A DNA stretch of 64,000 nucleotides from Desulfovibrio sp. JY (lineage in GTDB: Bacteria > Desulfobacterota > Desulfovibrionia > Desulfovibrionales > Desulfovibrionaceae), in NCBI GenBank assembly GCA_021730285.1, contig CP082962.1, positions 1,178,001 through 1,242,000 on the forward strand, written 5' to 3'. Position numbers and translations under genes: made by a program. The notes beneath the pieces are model-generated. The model had not been told where the DNA came from. It searched no databases and saw nothing but the letters and a program-made list of their open reading frames with translations. This document shows, in pieces, positions 34,654-63,792 of this stretch. Positions within the stretch are counted from its first letter, which is position 1, and the number at the start of each line of letters is the position of its first letter.

Positions 34654-34666
34654 AAACCATATTTGT

Positions 34667-46270: not shown

Positions 46271-47571
46271 TTAAAATGGAATGACTCCCATGAACGCGGC
46301 GGCAAAGGTCATGACAATGGAGGCCATCCACAAGAAGGGAATGGAATACTTTTGATGTTCGCCAAACTCGATGCCGGCAAGGCCGACCAGCAAGAAGGGG
46401 GCTGGCGTCAGGGGACTGACGGGAAATCCCGTCGTGCAGGCCCCGAGCAGTGCCGCCTGCGCGATCTGTACGGCATTTCCCCCCGCGTTCTTATACACTT
46501 CGGCTATCACAGGCATCACGCCGAAGTAGAAGGAGTCCGGGTCGAAGAACAACGTCAAAGGCATGCCGATGATTCCGAGGGCAAAGGGGATGTGCTGCGT
46601 CATCTCGTGTGGGACGAAGGAGATGATGGCCTTGGCCATGGCGGCGGTCATGCCGGTGCCTTTCATGATGCCGACGAAGGCGCCGGCCGCCATGAGGATG
46701 CTGGCCATCATCATGGCCGGCTTGGCATGCGCGTCCACGCGCGCCCGCTGCAGTTTCGCGTGCGGGTAATTGATCACCAGGGCCAACACGGTGCCGATCA
46801 TGAAGGAGACCGCGGCGGAGAGGATGTTGGTAATCATGACGAAGATGACGCCCACAGTAATGAAGACGTTGACCCAGAAGAGATGGGGGCGGCGCAGCTC
46901 GATTTGCTTTTCGGAGAGTTCGGCCTTGCAGGCGCCTGCGGAAAAATCGCAGCCCTCGCGACGAAGCCGCTTTTCCTCGCGCTTGCCCAGCATGTAGGCG
47001 AAGAAGAACGCCAGCGCCAAGCCGCAGATCTGCACCGGAATCAGGGGGTTGAAAATCTCGATGGCCGAGATGTTCAATACCGCCGAAGACCGGATCATTG
47101 GCCCGACCCAGGGCAGGAAGTTCACGCCCGCCCCCAGGGCGGCCATGCAGGCCAATATGCGCTTGTCCATGCCCAAGAGATCATAGAGGGGCAGCAAGGC
47201 CGGGACGACGAGCATGAAGGTCACCGCCCCGGAGCCGTCCAGATGGATGAGCAGCGTCAGGAACAGTGTCCCCATGGTAATGCGCGTCGGGCTGGTGCCC
47301 ACTACCTTGAGCACGCCGTTGATGATCGGGTCCAGCATGCCCGCGTCAGACATGACGCCGAAGAACAGGATTGCGAACACGAACATTCCGGCGGCTGGAA
47401 CGATGGAACGCAAGCCTTCGATGATAAACTTGCTTGTTGTGTCAGGTCGGCTCCGCTAACAACAGCGCCAATGAAAGGAATTACGATCAAGGCAATCAGC
47501 GGAGAAAGCCTTTTTGTCATGATAGAGACAAGGAGAACAACAATAACAAGGAGTCCCAATAATGCAAGCAT
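46271..47571 (-). pseudogene. CitMHS-family tricarboxylate transporter, frameshifted
   Basis: This gene resembles the CitMHS citrate/tricarboxylate-proton symporters, with about 12 membrane helices. The N-terminal part (from ATG 47571, AAGGAGGAG upstream; MLALLGLLVIVVLLVS, FIGAVVSGADLTQQ) is in one frame. The remaining ~380 codons (LFFGVMSDAGMLDPIINGVLK, LIHLDGSGAVTFMLVVPALLPLYDLLG, FDPDSFYFGVMPVI) are in another. The break is near 47430. One missing base would restore a 433-residue protein of normal family length, with the join reading QQAxKFIIEGLRSIVP. There is no obvious slippery site. It is third in the tcuA-tcuB order, so it is the expected substrate importer. It is either a real recent mutation or a sequencing error. 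Confidence 0.8.
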
Positions 47572-47727
47572 GGCTCCTCCTTCTCTTGGACATTGTGCGA
47601 AAATGCCTTTCAGCAGACAGTATCGCTCAACACCGCAACCATATATCGTTTTTTATGCCAATCATGTAAATACATTTTTTGCCATTTCATACGGTTCTGT
47701 GCTCGTACTCCTGAATTTTCAGAACCT

Positions 47728-48843
47728 CTATGGCTTTTTACGTACGGGATTTGCCTGAATTTGTTCTCCTGCATGACGAACAAGTGCCGCATATCGATAG
47801 ACACCATGAACAAACTTGCTGTATGGCATTGTTATAAATAACGCCATAACCAGTCCAAGATGGATGCACAATAAAATACCCATTATACTCGTTGATCGAA
47901 AAACCAGGAGCAGCAGGCCTGAAATAGTGACAGAGCACAGCAGCATGATGAATGAAATATCCATTGGAAAGGCTTCCGCATAGGCGGGCTCCTTGTCCAT
48001 GAGCTTTTTCAAGCGGTACAGCCCGATGGTGCCGATAGCCAGGGAGACGCCACCAAGCGTCCCCAAAAGCACGGGCAGACTGAAGAAGGCATAGGGCGCG
48101 GCAATGCCGAGGGCATGGTCGTACGTCAGGGCGACGACGGTGGAGGCGAAGCACAACAGGAATCCATAGAAGGTGAAGTGATGCATGGAGCGGCGCTGCA
48201 TGCTGAACTTGTCGTCCGGGTAGTTGCAGCCGTCGCCGCCGCCTTCCAGATACCGCAACCGCAAGACGTCCCAGACGGCCCGCAGGTTGTAGGCGGGGCT
48301 GCGGAACATCTCCGCTTTGCCCTCCGTCGCCCGCCAAAGGTTTTTCATCCCCTTCCAGAGGCTCACACAAGCGAAGATGCCGACTGCGGAGAACAGCACA
48401 AGCAGCACGGGATAGGGGATGATGGCGTAGAAGCTTCCCGGTCCGGCCTGGGAGGCGAAAAAGGCGCTCGACCCGTGTCTGGCCAGGGACGTCAGCGTGA
48501 GGAGCAGCACGCAAAGGATCGTGATCGCGGCCACGACCTTCCCGTTTTTGTTGAACACCCCCTTGAAGGAGGCCGGCCAGGCGAACTCCTGGTACGTGTG
48601 CAAGCGCAGTTGGGCCAGGGTTCGCGGCACGTTCAGGTTGAACTCATGAGGAGGCGCGTACTGGCAGGCGTAGTAGCAGCCACGGCAGTTGTGGCACAAG
48701 TTGGCCATGTATTTCAAATCCGATTCCGTGAATATACGACGCAACTCCATGGCCGGGAAAACAGCGCAAAACCCTTCGCAATACCGGCAGGCATTGCAGA
48801 TGGTCATGATCCTGTTGGCTTCTTCTAGGATTTTTGAAGACAT
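47728..48843 (-). CDS. tcuB: Tricarballylate utilization iron-sulfur/heme membrane protein
   Basis: A 371-residue electron-transfer partner of TcuA. The cytoplasmic N-terminus holds two ferredoxin-type cluster motifs, Cys16-19-22-26 (CNACRYCEGFC) and Cys50-53-56-60 (CHNCRGCYYAC). About six membrane helices follow, with His residues (SMHHFTFYGFLL, IHLGLVMALF) that could bind heme. In characterised systems TcuB reoxidises the FADH2 of TcuA and passes electrons to the membrane quinone pool. It overlaps the tcuA end by 19 bp. The 3' quarter of the gene and the following gap are markedly more AT-rich than the neighbouring genes. Confidence 0.9.
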   Translation of the reverse strand: MSSKILEEANRIMTICNACRYCEGFCAVFPAMELRRIFTESDLKYMANLCHNCRGCYYACQYAPPHEFNLNVPRTLAQLRLHTYQEFAWPASFKGVFNKNGKVVAAITILCVLLLTLTSLARHGSSAFFASQAGPGSFYAIIPYPVLLVLFSAVGIFACVSLWKGMKNLWRATEGKAEMFRSPAYNLRAVWDVLRLRYLEGGGDGCNYPDDKFSMQRRSMHHFTFYGFLLCFASTVVALTYDHALGIAAPYAFFSLPVLLGTLGGVSLAIGTIGLYRLKKLMDKEPAYAEAFPMDISFIMLLCSVTISGLLLLVFRSTSIMGILLCIHLGLVMALFITMPYSKFVHGVYRYAALVRHAGEQIQANPVRKKP

Positions 48844-50246
48844 TTCGCAGACTCCTTTCCGGCGATACGGCCAAAAACCGTTCCGATTGTCATTCCAAAC
48901 CCGGCCATGTATCCCTGACCGAGAATATTGCCAGACACAAGCTCGCCCGCGGCGAAGATGTTCTTGGATGGCTTCCCATCCTGCATGAGCATCCTGGCCT
49001 GCTCGTCGATTTTGAGGCTGAGGTAGGTGAAGGTGATGCCGGGGCGCAGGGGGTAGCCATAGAAAGGCGCCGTATCGATGGGGCGGGCCCAGTTGGACTT
49101 GATGGGCTCCAAGCCGGTGGTGGCGAGGCCGTCCAGGGCGTTGGAATCGAAAGCCCCGGGCGTGGTGGCTGCATTGTACTCCTGGATGGTGCTTTCCAGG
49201 CTGTCCGGGTCGAGGCCGAGTTTATGGGCCAATTCCTTGATGGAACCGGCCTCGATGGGGGGAAAGACCGAGGGCATGAACAGGTCGATCGACTTGGCGT
49301 CAATGATCGAGTAGGCGGTTTGCCCCTGCTGCTGGGCCACGAGCCTGCCCCAGATGGCGTAACGCTTGGGCCAGAACTCCTCGCCTTCGTTGTAAAAGCG
49401 CTTCGCTTCCTTGTTGACGCAGATGCCGAAGGGCACGCAATCGAGGCGCGTGACGATGCCGCCGTCGTATTTGGGCGCCCGGGCGTCGATGGCCACGCAA
49501 TGGCATTGGCTGGGATCGCCGACGGTGTCAGCCCCTTTCTCGCGCAGCACCCTGAGCACGACGCCCTTGTCGTAGGGGGAGCCGCGAACGATGAAATTGT
49601 CCGCCGCCTCGCCCCAGGAGCGTTTGAGCCACTCCAGGTCCGCCTGGAATCCGCCCGAGGCCGCGATCATGCAGCGGGCGCGCAACTGGAGAACCGTGCC
49701 CTTGTGGTTGACCGTGGCCGAGCGAAACAGGCCGTCGGACATGTCCAGATCCGTGACCTCGGCATCATAGAGGATTTTGACGCCCAGGCGTTCGCAGGTG
49801 GCGTAATAGGCGTTGACCAGCGCCTTGCCGCCGCCGCGGAAAAAGGCGTTGGTCCGGGACAGGTGCAGCGTCCCGCGCATGGACGGCTGGAACCGCACGC
49901 CATGCGCCATCATCCAGTCTCCCACCTCGGCGGATTCGCGTATGGTGAAGCGGGCCAGATCCTCGTTGGTATTCCCCTTGGTGACGAGCAGCAGATCCTT
50001 GAAGAACTCATCCTCGAGGTAGGGGCCGGTGAGAAAGCCGTTGGCGCTGCGGTGCATGTAGCGGAGGTTGCGGGTATGCCGGCTGTTGCCGCCCCTGAAC
50101 TCCCATGGGGAGGCTTCCAGGAGCACGACGCGCGCCCCGGCCTCGCTCGCGGTCATGGCCGCGCAGAGCGCGGCGTTTCCGCCGCCGATGACCAGCACGT
50201 CAAACGTCTCGCTGGGATCAATCCTTGGTTCTTGCGTAGGTTTCAT
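48825..50246 (-). CDS. tcuA: FAD-dependent tricarballylate dehydrogenase
   Basis: A 473-residue flavoprotein of the succinate dehydrogenase/fumarate reductase family, expected to oxidise tricarballylate to cis-aconitate. The FAD site is DVLVIGGGNAALCAAMTASEAG (about residue 16), with family features WEFRGGNSRHTRNLRYMH, SGGFQADLEW and the end YGYPLRPGITFTYLSLKIDEQARML ... GYMAGFGMTIGTVFGR. I start at ATG 50246, which follows AGGAT and gives a normal N-terminus; the frame is open to 50441 but that stretch is not conserved-looking. tcuB overlaps its end. A GTTTCA-N13-TGAAAC inverted repeat lies 200 bp upstream. Confidence 0.88.
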   Translation of the reverse strand: MKPTQEPRIDPSETFDVLVIGGGNAALCAAMTASEAGARVVLLEASPWEFRGGNSRHTRNLRYMHRSANGFLTGPYLEDEFFKDLLLVTKGNTNEDLARFTIRESAEVGDWMMAHGVRFQPSMRGTLHLSRTNAFFRGGGKALVNAYYATCERLGVKILYDAEVTDLDMSDGLFRSATVNHKGTVLQLRARCMIAASGGFQADLEWLKRSWGEAADNFIVRGSPYDKGVVLRVLREKGADTVGDPSQCHCVAIDARAPKYDGGIVTRLDCVPFGICVNKEAKRFYNEGEEFWPKRYAIWGRLVAQQQGQTAYSIIDAKSIDLFMPSVFPPIEAGSIKELAHKLGLDPDSLESTIQEYNAATTPGAFDSNALDGLATTGLEPIKSNWARPIDTAPFYGYPLRPGITFTYLSLKIDEQARMLMQDGKPSKNIFAAGELVSGNILGQGYMAGFGMTIGTVFGRIAGKESAKCLQKS

Positions 50247-50369
50247 GGCAGATCCTAAGTTGCCGTGCCCGAAAGGCGATTCCAGGCACCACGTTCGTTC
50301 CGTTTCCACATTGCAAGGCGGCATGCCGACACGGGCGTGGAAGGGCCATGCCCGAAGCCCGGCTTTGGC

Positions 50370-50410
50370 GGGCTGCGTCCGCAACCGCGCTGCGCTTGCG
50401 GACGCAGCCC
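50370..50410 (-). terminator. Strong hairpin between sucCD and tcuA
   Basis: GGGCTGCGTCCGCAA and TTGCGGACGCAGCCC form a perfect 15-bp stem with an 11-base loop, 120 bp after the SucCD stop codon. The T tract is poor. It probably separates icd-sucCD transcription from tcuAB. Confidence 0.6.
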
Positions 50411-50445
50411 TTCCGGAGCGGATCCGATTGGCCTGATCCACTTTC

Positions 50446-50470
50446 GTTTCACGCTATGCGGGCCTGAAAC
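50446..50470. promoter_or_regulatory. Operator-like inverted repeat upstream of tcuA
   Basis: GTTTCA (50446-50451) and TGAAAC (50465-50470) are separated by 13 bp. The same half-sites occur next to the regulator gene and upstream of the hydratase gene, so this may be a binding site of the PrpR-like activator for tcuAB. Confidence 0.45.
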
Positions 50471-50529
50471 ATTCCCCCTGCGGTGCGCTCGGGGACGTCG
50501 CCTGTCAGCCGGTAGCCCAGGCGCGGGCC

Positions 50530-52635
50530 CTAGGCTCCCGCCGCCGCCCGGGGTTTGACCAAAAGCCTCGCCATGGCTTCCGGCAGCTCGTCCAGGCTCG
50601 AACAAACCTCGATGCCGGCCTGCCGCAGCGCCGAAAGTTTGCGCGCCACGCCGCCGCCTTCCTCAAGGATGGCGCCCGCATGGCCCATGCGACGCCCTGC
50701 GGGCGCGGTGAGTCCGGCCACGAAACTGACGATGGGCTTGGGATAGGATGCGGCGGCGACATAGGCGGCCACATCCTCCTCGGCCCGGCCTCCAATCTCG
50801 CCAAGCAGCAGGACGGCCTCCACCCGCGGATCGTCGCGCACAAGATCGAGCAGTTCGGCAAAACCGAGTCCGATAAATGGATCCCCGCCGACGCCAAGCG
50901 CCAGGGCCTGCCCCATGCCGGCGGCGCTCAGCCGGGCCGAGGCCTCATACGTCAGGGTACCGCTTCGAGAGAACACCGCCACCGGACCGGGCCGGAAAGG
51001 ATCGGTCGGCATGATTCCGGCCTTGAAACGGTCCGGAACAATGATGCCCGGGGTGTTGGGGCCGAGCAGGCAGGTGCCGTTTTCCCGCAAGGCGGGCAGG
51101 ACCCGCAGCATGTTGAGTTGCGGCGTGCCTTCGGTGATGCACACGACCCAGGGGACCTTGGCGTCGGCCGCTTCCAGGATGGCGTCGGCCACGAAGGGGC
51201 CGGGCACGAAAATGATGCTCAGGTCGATGCGGTGCTGCCGGACCGCCTCGTGCACGGTGTCGTATATGGGCGTATCCCCGCTGCGGGTCCCGCCTTTGAA
51301 GGGGGTGACGCCGGCCACGATGTTCGTGCCGTACGCCCGCATCAGTCCGGCATGGAACGTGCCCATTTTGCCGGTCAGCCCCTGGACGAGAACCTGGGTC
51401 CCGGGGCCCAGATCCAGGGGGGAGGGGACGTCGTCGCGGCGGCGCGTTCCCCGCGGCACGGGCGGCAGCGACACGGCTACGCTGACGCTGTCGTTTAAGA
51501 CTCTCGGCGTGCTTCGCGGCCCAAGCTTGCCCAAAAGCTCCATGGCCCCGGCCATGTCGTCGGCCAGGAACAACCGTTCCAGTCCGCTGGCCTGAAGCAG
51601 TTCCTTGCCCTTCTCCGCGCTGTTTCCGGACAAGCGGGCCACGACCGGTTTGGCCGGTTCCTTGCCGTCCAATACCGCCAAAAGCGCTTCGGCGACCGCG
51701 GCGCAGGATAGTATCCCCCCGTACAGGTTGATGAACACCGCGTTGACCCGATCGTCGCCGAGCAGCAACTCCAAGGCGTCGCGCATGCGTTTCGCATCGG
51801 CCGTGCCGCCCAGGTCAAGGAAGTTGGCCGGAGCGATGCCCGCGAAATTGAGGGCGTCCATGGTCGCCATGGCCAGGCCGGCCCCGTTGACCACGCAACC
51901 GACCCAGCCATCGAGGCGCACATAACTGAACCCGGCCTTGCGAGCCGCCAGTTCTCGTCGCCCGTAATGCCCGGGATTCGCCAAGGCTTCCAACTCGGGC
52001 CGGATTTCGGCCACGCTGTCGTCGATCTCGACCTTGCCGTCCAGGGCCAACAGCCAGCCGCCGGCGACCTCGGCCAGGGGATTGATCTCGGCCAGGAGCA
52101 AGCCGTTATCCTTCACGGCCCTATAAAGGCCGAGCACCACAGTCCTAAAATCGTCCATCTGTTCCCGGCGCAGGCCTAGCCGGAAAAAGGCGCTGCGCAC
52201 CTGGGCTTCGGTGGGGCCTTCGGGCAGGCGCACCTTCTGGATCAGGGGCTGCGAACCCTCGCCGGATTCCACGTTCATGCCGCCGGTGGCCTTGACCGTG
52301 AGCAGCAGGCTTTCCCGGTCCCGGGAAACGGCCAGGCTCACATAGAACTCGCGCGTGATGCACGCGGCGGGCTCCAGCAGCAGCATCGGCGGCCGGCTTC
52401 CCCCAATGGGCAGGTCGAACAGTTTTTTCATGACCCCCGGCAGGGCCACCGGCCCGTCCACCCGGACCACGCCGCCCGCCTTGCCCCGTCCTCCGGCCAG
52501 CACCTGGGACTTGACCATCCACGGGGCGGCGAACTCCGGATGCGGCTTTTCCCCCGGGCGCACAACGATCCCCGGGGGCACGGGAATTCCGGCCGCGGCG
52601 AACAGTTTTTTGCTCTGGTACTCATCAAGCAACAT
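50530..52635 (-). CDS. sucCD: Succinyl-CoA synthetase, beta and alpha subunits fused in one chain
   Basis: A 701-residue protein in SucC-then-SucD order. Residues 1-365 are the ATP-grasp beta part: LDEYQSKKLFAAAGIPVPPG, VKSQVLAGGRGKAGGV, EINPLAE and LDLGGTADAKR. After a Pro/Arg linker (about 370-393), residues 394-701 are the CoA-binding alpha part: VLVQGLTGKMGTFHAGLMRAYG, GVTPFKGGTRSGD, and the phosphorylated-His site RRMGHAGAILEEGGG. It would convert succinyl-CoA to succinate and make ATP, ending the route from 2-oxoglutarate. GGAGGAACAATCC precedes the ATG. It lies 152 bp after icd and probably shares its operon. Confidence 0.87.
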   Translation of the reverse strand: MLLDEYQSKKLFAAAGIPVPPGIVVRPGEKPHPEFAAPWMVKSQVLAGGRGKAGGVVRVDGPVALPGVMKKLFDLPIGGSRPPMLLLEPAACITREFYVSLAVSRDRESLLLTVKATGGMNVESGEGSQPLIQKVRLPEGPTEAQVRSAFFRLGLRREQMDDFRTVVLGLYRAVKDNGLLLAEINPLAEVAGGWLLALDGKVEIDDSVAEIRPELEALANPGHYGRRELAARKAGFSYVRLDGWVGCVVNGAGLAMATMDALNFAGIAPANFLDLGGTADAKRMRDALELLLGDDRVNAVFINLYGGILSCAAVAEALLAVLDGKEPAKPVVARLSGNSAEKGKELLQASGLERLFLADDMAGAMELLGKLGPRSTPRVLNDSVSVAVSLPPVPRGTRRRDDVPSPLDLGPGTQVLVQGLTGKMGTFHAGLMRAYGTNIVAGVTPFKGGTRSGDTPIYDTVHEAVRQHRIDLSIIFVPGPFVADAILEAADAKVPWVVCITEGTPQLNMLRVLPALRENGTCLLGPNTPGIIVPDRFKAGIMPTDPFRPGPVAVFSRSGTLTYEASARLSAAGMGQALALGVGGDPFIGLGFAELLDLVRDDPRVEAVLLLGEIGGRAEEDVAAYVAAASYPKPIVSFVAGLTAPAGRRMGHAGAILEEGGGVARKLSALRQAGIEVCSSLDELPEAMARLLVKPRAAAGA

Positions 52636-52787: not shown

Positions 52788-53999
52788 CTAGAGGCGCTCG
52801 ATAATGGCTTGGCCGAACTCGGAGCATTTGACCTGCCGCGAGCCTTCGAGCTGCCTGGCCAGGTCGTAGGTCACGATCTTGTCCCGTACGGCCTGCTCCA
52901 GGCCGTGGCGAATCGTCCCGGCCACCTCGTTCCAGCCCAGATGTTCAAACATCAGGGCTCCGGAGAGGATGAGCGAACCAGGATTGATCATGTCCTTGCC
53001 GGCATACTTCGGAGCGGTGCCGTGCGTGGCTTCGAACACGGCGGCCTGGTCGCCGACGTTGGCGCCGGGGGCCATGCCCAGACCGCCGACCTGGGCGGCC
53101 AGGGCGTCGGAGAGGTAGTCGCCGTTGAGGTTGGGCATGGCGAGGATGTCGTATTCTTCGGGGCGCAGCAGGGCTTGCTGAAACATGGAGTCCGCAATGC
53201 GGTCATTGATGACCACCGTGCCCGGGGCCGCGTCGCCTTTCAGATCCTTCTCGGCCACGACCCGGTCCGGGAACTCCTCCCTGGCCAGTTCGTAGCCCCA
53301 CTCCCGGAACGCGCCCTCGGTGTGCTTCATGATATTGCCTTTGTGCACCAGGGTGACGCTTTTGCCGGCGTGGTCCAGCGCCCACTGGATCGCCCGGCGG
53401 ATGAGCCGCTTGGAGCCGTTCGGGGTCATGGGCTTGATCCCGATTCCGGCCTCGGGGGAGATCTCGGCCTGCAGCTGGGTACGGAGGAATTCGATGAGCC
53501 GTTTGGCTTCCGGAGTGCCCGAGGCCCATTCGAGGCCGGCGTAGACGTCCTCGGTATTTTCGCGAAAAATGACCATGTTCACCCGCTCCGGATGCTTCAT
53601 GGGCGATGGAACGCCCGGAATGAAACGCACCGGGCGAATGCAGGCGTAGAGGTCCAGGATATGGCGCAAGGCGACGTTGAGACTTCTGATGCCGCCGCCG
53701 ACCGGGGTGGCCAGGGGCCCTTTTATCGCAACGCGGCACTGCCGGAGCCGGTCAATGGTTTCCCGGGGCAGCCACTCGCCCGTGCGCGCATGCGCCTTCT
53801 CGCCGGCCAGGACTTCAACCCACTCCACGCTGCGTTTGTCGCCGTAGGCCTTGGACACGGCGGCATCGAAAACAGCCGAGGCGGCGCGCCAAATATCGGC
53901 ACCCACGCCGTCCCCCTCGATGAACGGGATGACGGGATGATTGGGAACGATCAGTCTGCCGGCTGAGTCAATGGCAATACATTCGGGATTTCTTTGCAC
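52788..53999 (-). CDS. icd: NADP-dependent isocitrate dehydrogenase
   Basis: A 403-residue dehydrogenase producing 2-oxoglutarate, CO2 and NADPH. The substrate-binding [21 protein letters not shown] holds the Ser phosphorylated by IDH kinase in enterobacteria, and [39 protein letters not shown] and [12 protein letters not shown] follow. The Lys-Tyr after THGTAP is the NADP-specificity pair. I choose GTG 53999 (product [11 protein letters not shown]...) because GGAGG lies 6-7 bp before it; the frame is open to a TTG at 54026 with no such site. A sigma-54-like promoter lies about 50 bp upstream, divergent from the PrpR-like regulator. Confidence 0.95.
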
Positions 54000-54046
54000 T
54001 GCGAGCCTCCATGTCTGGGTGGTCAAACATTTTGGGAAGCCCTAAG

Positions 54047-54062
54047 AACAAATACCGTGCCA
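54047..54062 (-). promoter_or_regulatory. Sigma-54 (-24/-12) promoter of icd-sucCD
   Basis: The minus strand reads TGGCACGGTATTTGTT (54062 down to 54047). The -24 element TGGCAC is perfect and preceded by T. The -12 element is TTGTT instead of TTGCW, so it is near-consensus with exact spacing. Transcription would start about 54036, about 37 bp before the GTG codon. Confidence 0.6.
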
Positions 54063-54195: not shown

Positions 54196-54259
54196 TGTTT
54201 CAGGTGTTTCAATTGAGCGAAAAGCGTTGCAGGGTTGAAACTTCTATGCAACAGTTGCA
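54196..54259. promoter_or_regulatory. Clustered operator-like sites in the icd/regulator intergenic region
   Basis: Two direct TGTTTCA copies (54196-54202, 54205-54211) are followed by GTTGCA (54226-54231), TGAAAC (54236-54241), TGCAAC (54247-54252) and GTTGCA (54254-54259). The last two form the palindrome TGCAAC-A-GTTGCA, 2 bp before the regulator ATG. The 27-bp block 54226-54252 has the same spacing and 18 identical positions to 61427-61453 upstream of the hydratase gene. They lie 134-200 bp upstream of the icd sigma-54 promoter, a normal distance for activator sites. Confidence 0.5.
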
Positions 54260-54261
54260 AT

Positions 54262-56202: not shown

Positions 56203-56208
56203 GTTGCA
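56193..56208 (+). promoter_or_regulatory. Sigma-54 (-24/-12) promoter of the prpF-kor operon
   Basis: TGGCATCTAAGTTGCA matches TGGCAY-N5-TTGCW at all fixed positions. It overlaps the stop codon of the sigma-54 activator gene. Transcription would start near 56220, 23 bp before the prpF ATG. Confidence 0.75.
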
Positions 56209-56242
56209 ATAGGCCGCCAAACTCTTCGGGAGCGAGGCGGAC

Positions 56243-57388
56243 ATGCAACGACGAATCCCAGCTGTCGTCATGCGCGGCGGCACCAGCAAGGGCGTTTTCT
56301 TCCATGAAACCCATCTGCCCCGGGACCAGGGCCTTCGGGACCGGCTGATCAATCGCATATTCGGAAGCCCCGACCCCAACCAGATCGACGGTCTCGGCGG
56401 AGCGGCTTCCGTCACCTCCAAAACGGCCATCATCGCTCCCGCCTCGGACCCGCGCTACGACGTGGCCTACACCTTTGGCCAAGTCTCCATCGACCGCCCC
56501 CTCGTCGACTACAAAGCCAACTGCGGCAATATCTCCGCCGCCGTCGGTCCGTTCGCCGTGGACGAGGGCCTCGTGCCCGCCATCGAGCCGGTGACCAAGG
56601 TGCGCATCCACCAAAAGAACACGGACAAGCTCATCATCGCCGAGGTTCCGGTCAAAAACGGCCGATTCGCCTGCGAAGGATCCTACGCCATCTCCGGCGT
56701 CCCCGGGACCGGGTCCAGGATCGTCCTGCATTTCCATGACCCGGGCGGCGCAGTCACCGGCCGCCTGCTGCCCACCGGCAACCCTCGCGACGTCCTTGCA
56801 GTGCCGGGACTGGGCGAGATCGAAATCAGCGTGGTGGACGCGGCCAACCCCGTCGTCTTCGTCCGAGCGGAGAGGCTCGGCCTGAACCCGGGGGACGCCC
56901 GGTCGCTGCGAGAGCCTTCCGTCCGGGCCATGCTTGAAGCTGTCCGGGCCCGGGCGGCGGTGCTGCTTGGCCTCGCGGCATCACCCGAGGAGGCCTCCCA
57001 ACGCGTCCAGACCGTGCCCAAGATCGCCGTCGTCGCGCCCCCCGTGGACTCTCTGACATTGTCGGGAAACGCCCTGCCCCGGGACCGGATCGACCTCACG
57101 GCCCGGATCATGACCATGGGCGCCCTGCACAATGCCTACGCCGTAAGCGGTGCCATCTGCACGGCCGGAGCGGCCCGCATCGAAGGGACGGTGGTGCACG
57201 AATCGGTTGCGGCTGAAACGATAGGGCCGTTGCGCATCGGCCATCCGAGCGGAGTGTTCGAGGTCGAGGCAACAGTTGTGAAGAAAGACGGCCAGGACCA
57301 TTACGTCAAGGCCACGGTGGGGCGCACCGCCCGGCGGCTCATGCACGGGTACGCCGAAGTGCCGGGATCCCTATGGCCGAACGGATGA
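56243..57388 (+). CDS. prpF: PrpF-family aconitate/methylaconitate isomerase
   Basis: A 381-residue PrpF protein with the diaminopimelate-epimerase-like double fold. Signatures are IPAVVMRGGTSKGVFF at the N-terminus, GLGGAASVTSKTAI, the YKANCGNISAAVGPFA region with the catalytic Cys (about residue 95) and TMGALHNAYAVSGAICTA. Family members isomerise 2-methylaconitate and can convert trans-aconitate to cis-aconitate. Next to tcuAB and a hydratase, the trans-aconitate role is more plausible than the methylcitrate cycle, because no prpB, prpC or prpD is present. It is the first gene after the sigma-54 promoter. Its stop lies 18 bp before the kor ferredoxin start. Confidence 0.88.
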   Translation: MQRRIPAVVMRGGTSKGVFFHETHLPRDQGLRDRLINRIFGSPDPNQIDGLGGAASVTSKTAIIAPASDPRYDVAYTFGQVSIDRPLVDYKANCGNISAAVGPFAVDEGLVPAIEPVTKVRIHQKNTDKLIIAEVPVKNGRFACEGSYAISGVPGTGSRIVLHFHDPGGAVTGRLLPTGNPRDVLAVPGLGEIEISVVDAANPVVFVRAERLGLNPGDARSLREPSVRAMLEAVRARAAVLLGLAASPEEASQRVQTVPKIAVVAPPVDSLTLSGNALPRDRIDLTARIMTMGALHNAYAVSGAICTAGAARIEGTVVHESVAAETIGPLRIGHPSGVFEVEATVVKKDGQDHYVKATVGRTARRLMHGYAEVPGSLWPNG

Positions 57389-57405
57389 AACAAGAGGGGA
57401 AACGT

Positions 57406-57642
57406 ATGGCTGAACACGAGTCCAAAAAACTGCTTATCGACCGAATGCGCTGCAAGGGCTGTGGGATCTGCGTCCAACTCTGCCCGAAAAAAGTCCTGGT
57501 GCTTGATGCCGAGGACAAGGCGACGCTGATGGATTTCGAGCACTGCATCGCCTGCGGCATGTGCGAATTATACTGCCCTGATCTTGCCATTGAACTCGTG
57601 GCGCAGAGGCAGGACGACCAGGCAGAAGAGGCCGTAGAGTAA
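57406..57642 (+). CDS. korD: 2-oxoacid:ferredoxin oxidoreductase, ferredoxin (delta) subunit
   Basis: A 78-residue protein with two [4Fe-4S] motifs, CKGCGICVQLCP and CIACGMCELYCP. It matches the delta subunit of 2-oxoglutarate (or branched 2-oxoacid) ferredoxin oxidoreductases and would carry electrons from the TPP subunit. I choose ATG 57406, preceded by GAGGGG; ATGs at 57373 and 57385 are in frame but overlap prpF and lack sites. The last 12 residues are acidic. It lies 50 bp before korA. Confidence 0.88.
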   Translation: MAEHESKKLLIDRMRCKGCGICVQLCPKKVLVLDAEDKATLMDFEHCIACGMCELYCPDLAIELVAQRQDDQAEEAVE

Positions 57643-57691
57643 ACGCATTGCCCTTATCCGACCGATTACGCCCAGAGTACTGGAGAATGAT

Positions 57692-58840
57692 ATGAGCTCG
57701 AACGTCAGATTCGTCCAAGGCAACGAGGCCTGCGTGGAAGGCGCCTTGTACGCCGGATTGGACTTCTTTGCCGGCTACCCTATCACCCCGTCCACGGAAA
57801 TAGCCGAACTGCTTGCGGGAAAACTCCCCAAGCGTGGCGGGAAATTCATCCAGATGGAGGATGAGATCGCCTCGCTATGCGCCATCATCGCCGCTTCCCA
57901 GGCCGGGAAAAAAGGCATGACCGCGACCTCCGGGCCGGGCTTTTCCCTCATGCAGGAGGCCCTGGGCTACGCCGTGATGGCCGAGATACCCTGCGTGATC
58001 ACCAGCGTGATGCGCGGCGGCCCCTCGACCGGGGTGCCCACCCACGTCAGCCAGAGCGACGTAAACCAGGCCCGTTGGGGGACCCACGGCGATCACTCGA
58101 TCATTTGCCTGACCGCCTCCAACCACCAGGACGTGTTCGCCATGACCGTGGAGGCGTTTAACATGTCCGAGACCTACCGCACGCCGGTCATTTTGCTGTT
58201 CGACGAAATCGTGGGGCACATGCGGGAGAAGCTCCGCCTGCCCGAGCCCGGGGAAGTCCCCCTGGTCGAACGCCTGCGCACCTCGGTCAAGGAAGGCGTC
58301 AACTACCATCCCTACCTGCCCCGGGAGGACGGCCGCCTGCCCATGTCCGACTTCGGCGGCGTCCATCGCTACAACGTCACCGGCCTTTTCCACGACATGT
58401 GGGGATTTCCCACCGACAACCCCAAGATCGTTCGCGAACTCACCCGGCACCTGACGGACAAGATCGAGACCAACGCCGAAGCCATCTGCCGCTACAAGTC
58501 GTTTTTCCTGGAGGACGCCAAACACGTCTTCATCTCCTACGGCTCCGCGGCCCGCACGGTGCGCCAGGTGGTGGAGGAACGCCGCCTGATGGGCGAGAAG
58601 TACGGCATGCTGGAACTCCAGACCCTGTGGCCCTTTCCGTATGCCGCCGTCAGGGAGGCCTGCGCCCAGGCGGACTCCATCGTGGTGGTGGAGATGAACC
58701 TGGGCCAGGTCGTGGACCAGGTCAAGCTGGCCGTGGACAACAAGGACCGGGTCTTCCTCATCAACCGCTTCGACAGCGTGTTCATCAAGCCCGAGAACAT
58801 CATAGACCTTATGCGCCTCATTCAGGGCAAAGGGGTTTGA
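57692..58840 (+). CDS. korA: 2-oxoacid:ferredoxin oxidoreductase, alpha subunit
   Basis: A 382-residue pyrimidine-binding and transketolase-C-type subunit, without the fused gamma domain. The N-terminus reads VRFVQGNEACVEGALYAGLDFFAGYPITPSTEIAELLA, with GYPITPS contacting thiamine diphosphate. TSGPGFSLMQEALGYAVMAEIPCVI is also conserved. The kor subunit order D-A-B-C, and the closeness to icd and sucCD, argue for 2-oxoglutarate as substrate (product succinyl-CoA), but VOR-type activity cannot be excluded from sequence. TGGAG precedes the ATG. Its stop is 1 bp from the korB start codon. Confidence 0.9.
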   Translation: MSSNVRFVQGNEACVEGALYAGLDFFAGYPITPSTEIAELLAGKLPKRGGKFIQMEDEIASLCAIIAASQAGKKGMTATSGPGFSLMQEALGYAVMAEIPCVITSVMRGGPSTGVPTHVSQSDVNQARWGTHGDHSIICLTASNHQDVFAMTVEAFNMSETYRTPVILLFDEIVGHMREKLRLPEPGEVPLVERLRTSVKEGVNYHPYLPREDGRLPMSDFGGVHRYNVTGLFHDMWGFPTDNPKIVRELTRHLTDKIETNAEAICRYKSFFLEDAKHVFISYGSAARTVRQVVEERRLMGEKYGMLELQTLWPFPYAAVREACAQADSIVVVEMNLGQVVDQVKLAVDNKDRVFLINRFDSVFIKPENIIDLMRLIQGKGV

Positions 58841-58841
58841 A

Positions 58842-59645
58842 ATGGCCATCAAGGATTATATCCGCGAGCGGTTTCTTCCGCATATCTGGTGTCCCGGCTG
58901 CGGCCACGGCATCGTGCTCAACGGCCTGTTGCACGCCGTGGACAGCCTGGGCATGAAAAAAAACGACATGGTCATGGTTTCCGGCATTGGCTGTTCCTCG
59001 CGCATCTCCGGCTACGTGGATTTCCACACCTTGCACACGCTGCATGGCCGGGCCCTGGCCTTCGCCACCGGCATCAAGCTGTGCCGGCCGGAACTCAACG
59101 TCATCGTGCCCATGGGGGACGGCGACGCCCTGGCCATCGGCGGCAACCACTTCATCCACGCCGCCCGGCGCAACATCAACATCACGGCCCTGGTCATGAA
59201 CAACCGCATCTACGGCATGACCGGAGGCCAGTATTCCCCGCTCACCGGGCCGGGACGGCTGGCCACCACCGCCCCGCTGGGCACCGTCGACCAGATGTTC
59301 GACGTGCCCGCCCTGGCCGCCGCCGCCGGCGCCACCTTCGTGGCCCGCACGACCACCTTCCACGTCAAGGAGCTGGCGAAAATCATCGCCAAGGCCATCA
59401 CCCACAAGGGCTTCTCCGTCGTCGAGATACTAAGCCAGTGCCCCACGTATTACGGCCGCAAGAACAAGGAAGGCGACGCGGTGGCCATGATGCTGCGGTA
59501 CAAGGAGGCCACCACGCCCGTCGGCTCGAAAGCCAAGCAGGAAAACCCGCAGCTTCTCGAGCGCGGCGTGTTCGTGGACAGGCAGGCGCCCGAGTACTGC
59601 GAGGAGTACGACAAGACCATCCAGCGGGCCCAGGCCAGGGCGTAA
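58842..59645 (+). CDS. korB: 2-oxoacid:ferredoxin oxidoreductase, beta (TPP-binding) subunit
   Basis: A 267-residue thiamine-diphosphate subunit with WCPGCGHGIVLNGLLHAV (cluster-ligand and N-terminal motif), GIGCSSRISGY, and the TPP motif GDGDALAIGGNHFIHAARRNIN. The short length and the third motif match the KorB/VorB group. The metal ligands in VMNNRIYGMTGGQYSP are intact. Translation is probably coupled to korA. Confidence 0.93.
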   Translation: MAIKDYIRERFLPHIWCPGCGHGIVLNGLLHAVDSLGMKKNDMVMVSGIGCSSRISGYVDFHTLHTLHGRALAFATGIKLCRPELNVIVPMGDGDALAIGGNHFIHAARRNINITALVMNNRIYGMTGGQYSPLTGPGRLATTAPLGTVDQMFDVPALAAAAGATFVARTTTFHVKELAKIIAKAITHKGFSVVEILSQCPTYYGRKNKEGDAVAMMLRYKEATTPVGSKAKQENPQLLERGVFVDRQAPEYCEEYDKTIQRAQARA

Positions 59646-59680
59646 CCATCCGGCAACCCGGTTGCCAGCAAGGATATCCC

Positions 59681-60226
59681 ATGGAAACAAAACGATTGGT
59701 CTTTTCCGGTTCCGGCGGCCAGGGAGTCATCACGGCCGCCATCATTCTGGCCGAAGCGGCCGCCCTGTTCGAGGGGCTCGAGGCGGTGCAGTCCCAAAGC
59801 TACGGCCCCGAAGCCCGGGGCGGCGCGACCAGGACGGACGTGATCATTGCCAACCGTCCCGTGTTCTACCCCAAAGTCAGTACACCGGGCATCCTGGTGT
59901 GCCTGACGCAGGAGGCATACAACAAATACGGCTGCACCCTGCGCCCCGGGGGAATGCTGCTCACCGACAGCCGTTACGTCACCGTCCGGGTCAGCGAGGA
60001 CGCCCGGCACGCGTCGTTGCCCATGTACAAGACCGTTGTGGAGAAACTGGCCCAACCCGTGGTGTTCAACATCTGCATGCTTGGAACGCTTCTGGGGCTG
60101 ACGCACCTCGTCAAGCCCGAAGCGATCATGAAATCCCTGGAAACCAGACTGCCGCAGCGCCTGCTGGACGTGAACCGGCAGGCCCTGGAGATCGGCCTGG
60201 AGCTCGGTGAAAGCGTGACCCTCTGA
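59681..60226 (+). CDS. korC: 2-oxoacid:ferredoxin oxidoreductase, gamma subunit
   Basis: A 181-residue gamma subunit beginning KRLVFSGSGGQGVITAAIILAEAA, with the family segment QSQSYGPEARGGATRTDVII. The full set KorABCD would reduce ferredoxin while making succinyl-CoA from 2-oxoglutarate. ATG 59681 follows AAGGA. An intrinsic terminator lies directly after the stop, ending the operon that starts at the prpF sigma-54 promoter. Confidence 0.93.
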   Translation: METKRLVFSGSGGQGVITAAIILAEAAALFEGLEAVQSQSYGPEARGGATRTDVIIANRPVFYPKVSTPGILVCLTQEAYNKYGCTLRPGGMLLTDSRYVTVRVSEDARHASLPMYKTVVEKLAQPVVFNICMLGTLLGLTHLVKPEAIMKSLETRLPQRLLDVNRQALEIGLELGESVTL

Positions 60227-60232
60227 GCGCGC

Positions 60233-60266
60233 CGGCCCGGCGGCGACGCGTCGCCGGGCCGTTTTT
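60233..60266 (+). terminator. Rho-independent terminator after korC
   Basis: CGGCCCGGCG and CGCCGGGCCG form a 10-bp stem (with 9-base loop) followed by TTTTT, 7 bp after the korC stop codon. Confidence 0.88.
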
Positions 60267-60333
60267 CCTGGCATCGCCGGGCTGTTCCGCCAACGCCGAT
60301 CGCATGAGGCAACCCGCAACCAAGGAGCTTCCC

Positions 60334-61341
60334 ATGAACGCGAAAAGCGTCTGCGAAAGCGGCATGATCATGCCCGTGCGCATGATGCCCCAGGACGCCA
60401 ACCCGGCCGGATTCGTCCATGCCGGGGTGGTGCTGCGCAATATCGACCTGATCGGCGCCATCGTGGCCATGCGGCATGCCAGAAGCTCGGTCGTGACGGT
60501 GTCCATCGACAGGATGGACTTCCTGGCCACGGGCAGGGTCGGCGAGGTCATGTATTTCAAGGGCTATATCAATTATGTGGGCAACACTTCCATGGAAGTG
60601 GGGGTGCGCGTGGAAGCCGAAGATCTGCGTACCGGCCAACCCCGGCACGCGGCCTCGGCCTACCTGACCCTCGTGGCCGTGAACGCCGATCGCAAGCCGA
60701 CTCCCGTGCCGCCCCTGCGCCTTGAAACCCCGGACGAGTATCGTCGCAACGACGAGGCCCGCCAGCGTCGCGAAATGCGCAAAGCCGAGCGGCGGTCGGA
60801 GCATGAAGGCCAACACCTGTCCCGCGAGGACGAATTGGCCCAGTCGGGGCGGGAAGCGTGCGAAGAGGGCCAAAAAGACGTGATCATGCCCGTGCGCATG
60901 ATGCCGCAAGACGCCAACCCGGCCGGAAATGTCCATGGCGGCGTGATCCTGCGGCACATCGACATGGCGGGAGCCATCGCGGCCATGCGCCATTGCCGGA
61001 ACACGGTCGTGACGTCCTCCATCGAGCGCATGGAATTTCTGGGCACCGGCAGAGTGGGCGAGGTGATGTCCTTCAAGGCCAGCGTCAACATGGCCGTCGA
61101 ATCCAGCATGGAAGTCGGCGTCCGGGTGGAGTCCGAAAACCTCTTTACCGGCGAGATACGCCATACCGCATCCGCCTACCTCACTTTCCACGCCTTGGAT
61201 GACGACCGCCAGTCATTGTCGGCGCCCCCCCTGTTCCCCCAAACGCCGTTGGAGCATCGCCGGCACGCCGAGGCTCGACAGCGTCGGGAACTCCGGCACC
61301 TCGAACGCCAGCGCGAGCGGGCCGCCCAGGTCCGATCCTGA
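60334..61341 (+). CDS. Acyl-CoA thioesterase with two hotdog domains in one chain
   Basis: A 335-residue protein made of two closely similar hotdog domains. Each starts IMPVRMMPQDANPAG (first about residues 11-25, second about 185-199), followed by VHAG or VHGG and by MEVGVRVE. They are joined by a highly charged Arg/Glu linker (about 130-180), and the C-terminus is another charged helix. In double-hotdog acyl-CoA thioesterases the two halves pair into one active unit. The substrate is not known; hydrolysis of a CoA ester from this pathway, or CoA recycling, would fit. AAGGAG precedes ATG 60334. It lies between the kor terminator and the hydratase. Confidence 0.82.
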   Translation: MNAKSVCESGMIMPVRMMPQDANPAGFVHAGVVLRNIDLIGAIVAMRHARSSVVTVSIDRMDFLATGRVGEVMYFKGYINYVGNTSMEVGVRVEAEDLRTGQPRHAASAYLTLVAVNADRKPTPVPPLRLETPDEYRRNDEARQRREMRKAERRSEHEGQHLSREDELAQSGREACEEGQKDVIMPVRMMPQDANPAGNVHGGVILRHIDMAGAIAAMRHCRNTVVTSSIERMEFLGTGRVGEVMSFKASVNMAVESSMEVGVRVESENLFTGEIRHTASAYLTFHALDDDRQSLSAPPLFPQTPLEHRRHAEARQRRELRHLERQRERAAQVRS

Positions 61342-61409
61342 AGAAAACGTGCAGGCAACCGGGCTGCCCGCCCGGGTTGTCGCAGCCCCTGTCGCGACGG
61401 CCGTCCCGC

Positions 61410-61453
61410 GTTTCATGTTTCAGGATGTTGCGTTGATGAAACGACGCTGCAAC
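61410..61453. promoter_or_regulatory. Operator-like sites upstream of the hydratase gene
   Basis: GTTTCA (61410-61415) and TGTTTCA (61416-61422) are followed by GTTGC (61427-61431), TGAAAC (61437-61442) and TGCAAC (61448-61453). This is the same set of half-sites, with the same 27-bp spacing from GTTGC to TGCAAC, as in the regulator/icd region. I see no good sigma-54 promoter after it. Confidence 0.45.
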
Positions 61454-61524
61454 ACACCGCGCGAAACGCCCGCCGCGTCGGGCGGCAAATCGAATTGGGC
61501 GAAATATCCGAAAAGGAGGAACGC

Positions 61525-63792
61525 ATGATCACCGTCGAGACGGCATCGTACCTTGTCGATGGCAAGCTCATTTCCGAAGCCGAGGGCAAGGCCCTGGGCC
61601 TGCCCGCTCCCGAGGAAGCCAAGGCCGGGACCATGGCCCGCCGCATCCTCTTGGCCCACAACCATCGCGACGACACGCAGCGGCTCGCGCTCGTCTTCGA
61701 CGCCCTCGCCTCCCACGACATCACCTACGTCGGCATCATCCAGACGGCCCGGGCCAGCGGGCTTGAGGAATTCCCGGTGCCCTACGCGATGACCAACTGC
61801 CACAACACCCTGTGCGCCGTGGGCGGCACCATAAACGAGGACGACCACGCCTTCGGCCTCTCCGCCGCCAAGAAATACGGCGGCATCTTCATTCCGGGGC
61901 ATCTGGCCGTCATCCACCAGTACGTGCGGGAAATGCTCGCCGGCTGCGGCTCCATGATCCTCGGTTCGGACAGCCATACCCGCTACGGCGCCTTGGGCTG
62001 CATGGGCATAGGCGAAGGCGGTGGGGAGCTGGCCAAGCAGCTTCTTTGCCGCACCTACGAGTTGCGGATGCCCGAAGTGGTGGCCGTGCGCCTGGAAGGC
62101 AAACCCCGCCCGGGCGTGGGGCCGCATGACGTGGCCCTGGCCCTGATCCGGGAGGTCTTCAAGGATGGCTTGGTCAAAAACAAGGTCCTCGAATTCGTCG
62201 GTCCGGGGGTGGAAAGCCTGAGTGTGGAGTACCGCATCGGCATCGACGTGATGACCACGGAAACGACCTGCCTGTCCTCGATCTGGCAGACGGACGACAA
62301 GGTGCGGGAGTTTCTGGCCATTCATGGCCGCGAGGCGGACTACAAGCCCCTGGCGCCTGCCGGGACGCCGTATTACGACATGGCGATACGGATCGACCTT
62401 TCCCGCATCGAACCCATGATCGCCTTGCCGTTCCATCCGAGCAACGCCCATACCATCGCCAGCTTCCATGAAAACGCGCAGGACCTGCTTGCCGAGGTGG
62501 AAAAGACGGCGGCCAAGATTCTGGGCAAGGGGAAGTCTCCGGTTCGCCTGCGCGACAAGCTCCGCAACGGCCGTCTGTGGGTGGACCAGGCCGTGGTCGC
62601 GGGGTGCGCGGGCGGCATGTTCGAAAACCTGGCCCGGATGGCGACGATCCTCAAGGGCCAGGCCACCGGCCAGGACGATTTCTGGCTTTCCCTGTACCCG
62701 GCCAGCCAGCCCCAGCATCTGGAACTGATCCGAAACGGCATGGCCGCCACGCTCATGGAGGCCGGGGCGATCATCCGGTCGGCCTTTTGCGGCCCATGTT
62801 TCGGCGTGGGGGATGTCCCGGCCCACACCTGCCTCTCCATCCGCCACACCACCCGCAATTTCGCCAACCGCGAAGGCTCGAGGCCGGCCGACGGACAGAT
62901 CGCCTACGTGGCCCTCATGGATGCCCGTTCCATCGCCGCCACGGCCCGCAACAAGGGCAGATTGACCGCGGCCACCGAACTCGACGACGTGCCCGAGGAA
63001 TCCCCGGTCGCCTACGCCTTTGACCAGGGCATCTACAAGCAGCGCGTCTACAACGGCTTTGGCAGGCCCGAACCGGAAACCCGCCTGTTTTACGGCCCCA
63101 ACATCACGGACTGGCCGACCATGCCGCCCCTGCCCGAAAACCTGCTGCTGACCGTCTGCGCCGCCCTGCGCGACCCGGTCACCACCACCGACGAACTGAT
63201 TCCCTCGGGCGAAACCTCGTCCTTGCGCTCCAACCCCTTGCGTCTGTCGGAATTCACGCTGAGTCGCCGGGATCCGGAATACGTGCCGCGGGCCAAGGCC
63301 GTGCGCGAGCTTGAGGAGAAGCGCTGCCAGGCCCTGGCGGCGGCCAGGCCCGACCCGGAGGTGGAGCGGGTGCTGGCCAAGGCCGGCCCCGGCGGCCGCA
63401 TGGACACGACAGGCCTTGGCAGCCTGCTTTTCGCCGTCAAACCGGGGGACGGCTCCGCCCGGGAGCAGGCGGCGTCCTCCCAAAAGGTGTTGGGGGGCTG
63501 GGCCAATATCGCCGGCGGCTATGCGACAAAACGCTACCGCAGCAACATGGTGAACTGGGGCCTGCTTCCATTCGTCGTGGACGATGCCGCGTCCCTGGAC
63601 ATCGAAAATGGCGACCTGGTGCATATTCCGGGGATCAGGCAGGCCCTCGTTTCAGGGCAGGACAGCATCGCCTGCCGGCTCATCCGCGATGACGTCTCGA
63701 GGCCGTTGACCCTGCGTTTGCCCGACATGACCGGCGAAGAGCGCCTCACGATTCTTTCCGGCTGCCTGATCAATTCCTATGCCCAGCCTTAA
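61525..63792 (+). CDS. Aconitase-family hydratase (YbhJ-like)
   Basis: A 755-residue protein of the aconitase superfamily. MTNCHNTLCAVGG, GSDSHTRYGALGCMGIGEGGGELA and TTETTCLSSIWQTDD (first cluster Cys) lie in the N-terminal half. SAFCGPCFGVGDVPAHTC carries the paired cluster Cys (about residue 420-435) and NFANREGSRPADGQIAYVALMDARSIAATA follows. The C-terminal swivelling domain has RSNMVNWGLLPFVV. The length and domain order match the E. coli YbhJ group rather than AcnA, AcnB or IPM isomerase. Here it is the only candidate for cis-aconitate to isocitrate. AAAAGGAGG precedes ATG 61525. The frame from 61495 is open but not used. Confidence 0.88.
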   Translation: MITVETASYLVDGKLISEAEGKALGLPAPEEAKAGTMARRILLAHNHRDDTQRLALVFDALASHDITYVGIIQTARASGLEEFPVPYAMTNCHNTLCAVGGTINEDDHAFGLSAAKKYGGIFIPGHLAVIHQYVREMLAGCGSMILGSDSHTRYGALGCMGIGEGGGELAKQLLCRTYELRMPEVVAVRLEGKPRPGVGPHDVALALIREVFKDGLVKNKVLEFVGPGVESLSVEYRIGIDVMTTETTCLSSIWQTDDKVREFLAIHGREADYKPLAPAGTPYYDMAIRIDLSRIEPMIALPFHPSNAHTIASFHENAQDLLAEVEKTAAKILGKGKSPVRLRDKLRNGRLWVDQAVVAGCAGGMFENLARMATILKGQATGQDDFWLSLYPASQPQHLELIRNGMAATLMEAGAIIRSAFCGPCFGVGDVPAHTCLSIRHTTRNFANREGSRPADGQIAYVALMDARSIAATARNKGRLTAATELDDVPEESPVAYAFDQGIYKQRVYNGFGRPEPETRLFYGPNITDWPTMPPLPENLLLTVCAALRDPVTTTDELIPSGETSSLRSNPLRLSEFTLSRRDPEYVPRAKAVRELEEKRCQALAAARPDPEVERVLAKAGPGGRMDTTGLGSLLFAVKPGDGSAREQAASSQKVLGGWANIAGGYATKRYRSNMVNWGLLPFVVDDAASLDIENGDLVHIPGIRQALVSGQDSIACRLIRDDVSRPLTLRLPDMTGEERLTILSGCLINSYAQP

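Follow-up and report, generated by a model that had tools for sequence, protein, structure and literature searches.

We examined a 64,000-nucleotide window of the genome of Desulfovibrio sp. JY (positions 1178001–1242000 of its single 4.69-Mb contig), within which a 17.5-kb island encodes enzymes of tricarboxylate metabolism. Gene identities were assigned from the scores of family models (NCBIfam, TIGR and PF) relative to the cut-offs of those models; in what follows scores are given in bits against the cut-off. The minus strand carries, in this order, a frameshifted citMHS, tcuB, tcuA, a fused sucCD and icd. Divergent from these genes, the plus strand carries the gene of a PrpR_N/sigma-54 activator followed by prpF, korDABC, a double-hotdog thioesterase gene and a gene of the aconitase family (Table 1). 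An initial annotation of this DNA had named TcuAB, PrpF, an aconitase-family protein, NADP-dependent isocitrate dehydrogenase (Icd), KorABCD and SucCD at about these places, and the family models bear this out; the activator and the thioesterase had been left out.

Table 1. Features of the island and of the window edge, in window coordinates
Feature	Position	Strand	Evidence
CitMHS-family tricarboxylate importer, frameshifted	46271–47571 (open part 46271–47413)	-	TIGR00784 331 vs 259.7
tcuB, FeS/membrane partner of tricarballylate dehydrogenase	47728–48843	-	TIGR02484 422 vs 246.6
tcuA, FAD-dependent tricarballylate dehydrogenase	48825–50246	-	NF006130 678 vs 369
sucCD, fused succinate–CoA ligase (beta-alpha)	50530–52635	-	NF004230 (alpha) 349 vs 336
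icd, prokaryotic NADP isocitrate dehydrogenase	52788–54026	-	TIGR00183 612 vs 567
sigma-54-like promoter (-24/-12)	54047–54062	-	TGGCACGGTATTTGTT, 1 mismatch, 21 bases upstream of icd
sigma-54 activator with PrpR_N domain, probably sensing a tricarboxylate	54235–56202	+	PF06506 122 bits; PF00158
sigma-54-like promoter	56193–56208	+	TGGCATCTAAGTTGCA, 1 mismatch, 35 bases upstream of prpF
prpF-family isomerase, probably interconverting cis- and trans-aconitate	56243–57388	+	PF04303 420 vs 27
korD, ferredoxin-like subunit	57406–57642	+	two CxxCxxC-type motifs; 57% identical stretch at L038; no NCBIfam match at 1e-15
korA	57692–58840	+	NF006412 508 vs 411
korB	58842–59645	+	NF007207 284, under cut-off 364
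korC	59681–60226	+	NF006323 170, under cut-off 235
double-hotdog acyl-CoA thioesterase	60304–61341	+	PF03061 100.8 bits, two stretches
YbhJ-type aconitase-family hydratase	61495–63792	+	NF008503/PRK11413 'hydratase' 1151 vs 641
citC end (last 6 bases in window); citrate lyase operon continues outside	63995–64000	-	

The single genome-wide matches for tcuA and for prpF both lie inside the island. The same 17.5 kb hold one of the two icd copies of the genome, one of its two fused sucCD copies and the aconitase-family gene, and hence the clustering is not random. The other icd (60% identical to that of the island) lies at 3.19 Mb, the other fused sucCD (54% identical) at 3.13 Mb and an aconitase of canonical type at 1.99 Mb, while two citrate synthases are encoded at 4.50 and 3.94 Mb. 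The island thus holds a second, dedicated set of these enzymes. This agrees with the dedicated peripheral pathway of the initial annotation, whose statement that citrate synthase is missing holds within the island and fails for the genome.

We consider it likely that this island serves the catabolism of tricarboxylates and has an exit to succinate of its own. As read from the genes and their order, the substrates, direction, regulation and energy yield would be as follows. TcuA would convert tricarballylate to cis-aconitate, with TcuB passing the electrons to the membrane, and the PrpF-family protein would bring in trans-aconitate by converting it to cis-aconitate. The YbhJ-type protein would then serve as a dedicated aconitase, forming isocitrate from cis-aconitate or, in the other direction, citrate. 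Isocitrate would be carried to succinate through NADP-Icd, KorABCD and SucCD, a route that would yield NADPH, reduced ferredoxin and possibly ATP. An adjoining citrate lyase operon would have offered another way out, by which citrate yields acetate and oxaloacetate. The icd and prpF-kor operons are probably switched on by the central PrpR-like sigma-54 activator in response to a tricarboxylate.

Two of the new findings are the strongest: the module recurs with non-orthologous enzymes, and a case can be made that YbhJ is an aconitase. Loci with tcuA were collected from three overlapping sample sets, in which the gene is present in 3 of the 59 relatives, in 6 of the 395 phylum genomes (the present genome included in both counts) and in 7 of 257 genomes of the class of G175, itself already counted. 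This gave 13 loci besides the island, which were fetched up to contig ends or 20 kb. The island TcuA is 59–70% identical to TcuA at 11 of them and 55–56% identical to those of G602 and G627, and tcuB adjoins tcuA in 12, the exception being cut by the contig end. Aconitase genes are linked to tcuA at six loci and fall into five classes: YbhJ (L022), AcnB (L038 and L048), AcnA (L041), PRK07229 (L040) and mitochondrial (L045). The binomial tail for such linkage within 20 kb is at most 5e-7, a rough figure that takes 2–4 aconitase genes per 3-Mb genome. Six loci likewise carry a dehydrogenase of the isocitrate/isopropylmalate type, which is a eukaryotic-type NADP-Icd at L039 and L041 (by model) and at L038 and L048 (by similarity), and a member of the Iso_dh family at L040 (below equivalog cut-offs) and L049 (by similarity). 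Aconitase and dehydrogenase occur together at four loci (L038, L040, L041 and L048), and one or both at 8 of the 13, as would be expected of the dedicated pathway that had been proposed. PrpF-like genes were seen at four of these loci, PrpR-like genes at four and TctA/TctC-like transporter genes at six. The module thus seems, from these comparisons, to have been assembled repeatedly from non-orthologous parts, with five aconitase classes and other dehydrogenase subfamilies. With different enzyme families filling the same steps, the pattern points to selection for the pathway and away from descent of a single cluster. Among the matches listed in a search of open-licence literature, no paper dealt with a tcuAB–aconitase–icd–kor cluster or with YbhJ activity.

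YbhJ-type proteins form an orphan family. The island protein does belong to the aconitase family, as had been annotated (PF00330, 288 vs 28.7), and is more exactly of the YbhJ type; the models for aconitate hydratase itself are not reached (NF005558, 329 vs 612; TIGR01342, 297 vs 719). We aligned ten such proteins, namely that of the island, those of L017, L019, L022 and L034, and 5 of the 11 from a genus termed g36. The three cysteines that bind the [4Fe-4S] cluster are kept in all ten and in E. coli YbhJ. Also kept in the ten are the equivalents of H101, H147, D165-S166-H167, E262, R447, R452, R580, S642 and R644, in what we take to be the numbering of pig aconitase. In a tree of YbhJ proteins, support is weak (0.42–0.71) where the island protein branches.

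Gene neighbourhoods bear on the same question. The ybhJ gene adjoins prpF or is one gene away from it in L017 and L019, and at L022 the order is ybhJ-tcuA-tcuB-citDEF-transporter-oadAB-like genes; by joining ybhJ and tcuAB with citDEF, this locus links YbhJ to citrate. On the simplest reading, YbhJ would be a true aconitase that converts cis-aconitate, citrate and isocitrate into one another. Two further ybhJ loci deserve mention. At the start of the Megamonas locus L019 (3–290) lies the tail of a second ybhJ-like gene, the full copy being at 11171–13414. At L028, from a g36 genome that gave no tcuA match, a PrpB-like lyase gene (7529–8395; TIGR02317, 290 vs 354) has as its neighbours prpF, ybhJ and genes for a tripartite transporter and a PrpR-like activator.

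Within the 395 phylum genomes the YbhJ type occurs in 13: the present one, 11 of genus g36 and one other. In all 11 g36 genomes the PF00330 proteins are of the YbhJ type or are short (open frames of 421–467 aa), the latter being taken, from their length, to be LeuC-like. Within 3 kb of the g36 ybhJ there is icd in 9 of the 11 genomes and, in 10, a gene that we presume to be Re-citrate-synthase-like, its matches to the LEU1/NifV models falling below cut-off. This biosynthetic setting is what speaks for icd, the aconitase gene and sucCD of the island being ordinary biosynthetic genes of the tricarboxylic acid (TCA) cycle, for glutamate supply, that lie beside tcuAB by chance. We regard that as very unlikely, given the second icd, the canonical-type aconitase, the other fused sucCD and the two citrate synthases elsewhere in the genome, and given the non-orthologous aconitase and dehydrogenase genes at distant tcuA loci. 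A biosynthetic TCA cluster was rejected as the leading explanation on account of the second copies.

E. coli carries a related set, ybhD-ybhH-ybhI-ybhJ, in which ybhH, ybhI and ybhJ lie in a row. Its YbhH and YbhJ are 37% and 57% identical to the island PrpF-family and YbhJ-type proteins, and the set includes a putative tricarboxylate transporter; unlike the island, it has a LysR regulator and no tcuAB, icd, kor or sucCD within 16 kb. Against an aconitate-related role of ybhHIJ, an excerpt of PMC9068703 links ybhH and ybhI to the use of L-malate.

TcuA, the first enzyme, also exceeds the cut-off of TIGR02485 (582 vs 373). TcuB misses the narrower NF011607 (449 vs 524). The Salmonella enzyme is described as converting tricarballylate to cis-aconitate in the title of Lewis and Escalante-Semerena 2006, as cited in PMC10468695. 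The island shares with the Salmonella tcuABC system TcuA and TcuB homologues above the equivalog cut-offs and cis-aconitate as the entry to central metabolism. It differs in that no TcuC-type transporter was seen among its genes, the neighbour of tcuAB being instead the frameshifted importer of the CitMHS family, in its PrpR-like activator, and in adding an aconitase, Icd, KOR, SucCD and a PrpF isomerase of its own.

Aligned to 2pvz, the PrpF-family protein retains the Lys and the Cys that correspond to K73 and C107 in Shewanella oneidensis PrpF, two residues that matter by mutation in an excerpt of PMC5690661, and the TarA and TbrA proteins of the same superfamily are aconitate isomerases in one of PMC11495376. 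This family biochemistry supports its assignment as an aconitate isomerase, and with it the earlier suggestion that PrpF could feed in trans-aconitate. As in the Bacillus velezensis tarRAB trans-aconitate system of PMC11495376, an isomerase of the PrpF superfamily would deliver cis-aconitate to central metabolism; in the island, no TarB-type MFS importer or LysR regulator was seen among the genes, and dedicated downstream enzymes and TcuAB are present. Of seven prpF-family loci from named genomes, three carry aconitase-family genes: L014 with aconitase, Iso_dh and a PrpR-like gene, L017 with Iso_dh and ybhJ, and L019 with ybhJ. Two more carry citrate genes (citrate lyase genes at L015, citrate-fermentation-like genes at L020), and L016 and L018 carry neither kind. 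L018, on a contig labelled Bifidobacterium breve from a metagenome-assembled genome, has the prpF-family gene and a TcuA-like flavoprotein gene (33%) near ABC-transporter genes; this contig may be mislabelled. Genes for a LarA-like racemase and a PrpD/MmgE-like protein stand beside prpF in two genomes from separate groups (L041, 13267–15851; L017, 7309–10004), perhaps as an entry route for another tricarboxylate.

The names PrpF and PrpR could instead point to a 2-methylcitrate or methylitaconate pathway. The PrpR_N regulator and the PrpF domain fit this, as does the closest solved structure to the PrpF-family protein, 3-methylitaconate isomerase (3g7k). We hold it to be highly improbable: the protein falls below the equivalog cut-offs of both PrpF (TIGR02334, 316 vs 440.6) and 4-oxalomesaconate tautomerase (NF033377, 318 vs 440), and its neighbours are TcuAB and an NADP-Icd that exceeds its own cut-off. 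The 2-methylcitrate cycle was rejected since the hits listed for the scanned island proteins include no model of PrpB, PrpC or PrpD, the rest of the genome not having been searched for them.

Downstream of isocitrate, KorD, A, B and C are encoded consecutively at 57406–60226 in one operon. The island KorA is 71–73% identical to KorA at the tcuA loci L038 and L041, and the equivalog scores specific for 2-oxoglutarate are missed (NF007206, 364 vs 579; NF007207, 284 vs 364). The alpha part of SucCD also passes TIGR01019, by 353.4 vs 353.2.

Two sigma-54-like sites with at most one mismatch were found in the window against 2.3 expected by chance, and both lie at island operons, the prpF-side site overlapping the end of the activator gene. 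The count is thus at chance level, and only the positions are telling. In the 16 kb of the genome that follow, fetched as L021 (window coordinate = L021 + 63000), two such sites were found against 0.47 expected. One is an exact match, placed some 390 bases upstream of citD on the assumption that the start of this gene coincides with that of its family model; the other is tied to no cit gene. The sites at icd, prpF and citD suggest, by their sequence and placement, one tricarboxylate regulon. The activator itself scores below the PrpR equivalog cut-off (TIGR02329, 394 vs 499).

L021 also corrects the view that citrate lyase is lacking. That view arose from where the window happens to end; next to the island there is a citrate lyase operon. 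It comprises citC, which ends at window position 63995, a fused citXG, citF, citE and citD on the minus strand (L021 995–6542, to about 69540 in window-equivalent coordinates). CitD is above its cut-off and citC, citE and citXG are below theirs. The citF gene is split by a frameshift, with positions 18–316 of the TIGR01584 profile in one piece and 318–490 in another frame. The importer had been annotated as CitMHS type, and its family stands while its integrity does not. The open part covers positions 55–429 of the 431 of TIGR00784, the first ~54 positions are missing from it, and the N terminus was found in another frame starting at 47571, which places the break somewhere in about 47410–47450. 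Because citF and the importer are both frameshifted, the citrate arm looks damaged in this assembly.

Several comparisons bear on whether these frameshifts are genuine. Ten minus-strand open reading frames (ORFs) of at least 200 aa from the nearest congener, G011, match a 20-kb core region of the present genome, and all ten align to it in a single frame. One minus-strand ORF of another congener, G004 (492 aa), needs two frames to align; the others have a complete 354-aa gene that corresponds to its first part, the remainder is taken to be read-on, and breaks in three plus-strand frames overlapping those genes are taken to be spurious. Moreover, a 3.2-kb segment of the window that has a second copy in the genome differs from that copy by 23 substitutions and no indels. 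The evidence, drawn from congeners with other alleles and from the duplicated segment, leans towards real damage rather than assembly error in the importer and citF.

The adjoining operon raises the possibility that the island is mainly a locus for citrate fermentation and oxidation (CitMHS, citrate lyase, aconitase, Icd and Kor), with tcuAB and prpF as minor accessories. TIGR00784 places the importer in the citrate:proton symporter subfamily, and at L015, L020 and L022 citrate-fermentation genes accompany prpF or tcuAB; at L022 these genes include oxaloacetate-decarboxylase-like genes (OadA, 289 vs 756; OadB, 546 vs 191). We nevertheless judge this improbable, as the two genes in which frameshifts were detected are those of the importer and CitF, and citrate lyase is present at 1 of the 13 other tcuA loci (L022) against 8 with an aconitase or dehydrogenase. 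Compared with anaerobic citrate fermentation operons (citCDEFXG with oadAB), the likeness is that citDEF-XG-C adjoins the island and that L022 joins tcuAB, ybhJ, citDEF and oadAB-like genes; the differences are the frameshifted citF and an oxidative exit through Icd, KOR and SucCD.

Several findings weigh against a tricarboxylate-catabolic island with an exit to succinate. The beta half of SucCD is under its cut-off (NF001913, 310 vs 370), and since KorB, KorC, this half, PrpF and PrpR all fall below equivalog cut-offs, their substrates, that of the PrpF-family protein included, rest on context. At the other 13 tcuA loci, kor genes were found at only two (D, A, B and C at L038; D and A, up to the contig end, at L041), sucCD at none, and one tcuA match (G583) has an in-frame TGA. 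Neither aconitase nor dehydrogenase was found at five (L046, L047, L050, L023 and L042); the contigs of L046, L047 and L050 are shorter than 8 kb, the contig of L023 breaks off at tcuAB, and L042 is not truncated. Two active-site positions of aconitase are changed in all ten aligned YbhJ-type proteins and in E. coli YbhJ, D100 to Cys and S643 to Ala. The frameshifts in both the importer and citF leave uptake unexplained. In addition, tcuA, prpF and ybhJ at the NF008503 level were absent from all 13 congeners searched (two of them less than 90% complete). This absence implies that the island is not housekeeping of the lineage, and the scattering of unlinked genes in close relatives, of which the initial annotation had warned, was not seen. 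Finally, with menaquinone in an anaerobe the oxidation of tricarballylate should be uphill and the reverse reaction favourable.

The last point opens the alternative that TcuAB works in reverse, as a menaquinol-dependent aconitate reductase. Aconitate, trans- or cis-, would then be dismutated in the manner of fumarate/malate dismutation, part being reduced to tricarballylate and part oxidized via YbhJ, Icd, Kor and SucCD. This redox argument is joined by the best solved-structure matches of TcuA, which are flavocytochrome c fumarate reductases, by the linkage of PrpF-like isomerases to tcuAB here and at 4 of the 13 other loci, which fits aconitate as the substrate, and by an excerpt of PMC5830445 that names tricarballylate as an end product of ruminal fermentation. 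The description of Salmonella TcuA cited in PMC10468695 runs the other way, and TcuA and TcuB both exceed the equivalog cut-offs for tricarballylate utilization. On balance we think dismutation unlikely.

An extension of this idea concerns YbhJ. Tricarballylate is an inhibitor of ordinary aconitase. So is trans-aconitate, according to an excerpt of PMC11495376. In a joint scheme that we rate as speculative and rather unlikely, TcuAB would respire aconitate to tricarballylate, YbhJ, Icd, KOR and SucCD would oxidize the rest, and YbhJ, with its Asp-to-Cys and Ser-to-Ala changes in the active site, would form a second aconitase class, one tolerant of trans-aconitate and tricarballylate. If true, such an inhibitor-tolerant YbhJ would explain its presence beside a canonical-type aconitase and the purpose of E. 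coli ybhHIJ.

Other features of the island and its surroundings were also noted. The thioesterase, a fused tandem hotdog protein, is encoded between korC and the aconitase gene. Base composition of the window gave no clear signal of foreign origin, except for a dip in GC content to 0.51 at 47–48 kb. Genes for tRNA-Gln and tRNA-Glu lie at 34580–34744, about 11.5 kb to the left of the island, and a dCache-domain chemoreceptor encoded near the importer (43740–45899) is possibly a tricarboxylate sensor. Also near the island (37973–40250) are genes for a GltA-like NADPH oxidoreductase and a sulfide/dihydroorotate dehydrogenase-like FAD/NAD-binding subunit, presumably a pair of the NfnAB kind, which could balance the NADPH of Icd with the ferredoxin of KOR. 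The 3.2-kb segment with a second copy (40299–43520) holds a DRTGG-domain gene and an acetate–CoA-ligase-like gene and is 99.3% identical to its counterpart at 3.61 Mb, the 703-aa protein being 100% identical between the two. The genes next to the 3.61-Mb copy match those around the copy in each of three congeners, so the window copy looks like a recent duplicate that lies beside the island.

A catabolic island with its own exit to succinate, the reading that we favour, would gather orphan and misnamed genes (the YbhJ 'hydratase', PrpF and PrpR outside propionate metabolism, and tcuAB in this phylum) into one testable pathway. The repeated assembly of this module with five aconitase classes and other types of Icd is good comparative evidence for its function. 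If the reading is true, the YbhJ family gains a function, which in turn bears on ybhHIJ of E. coli.

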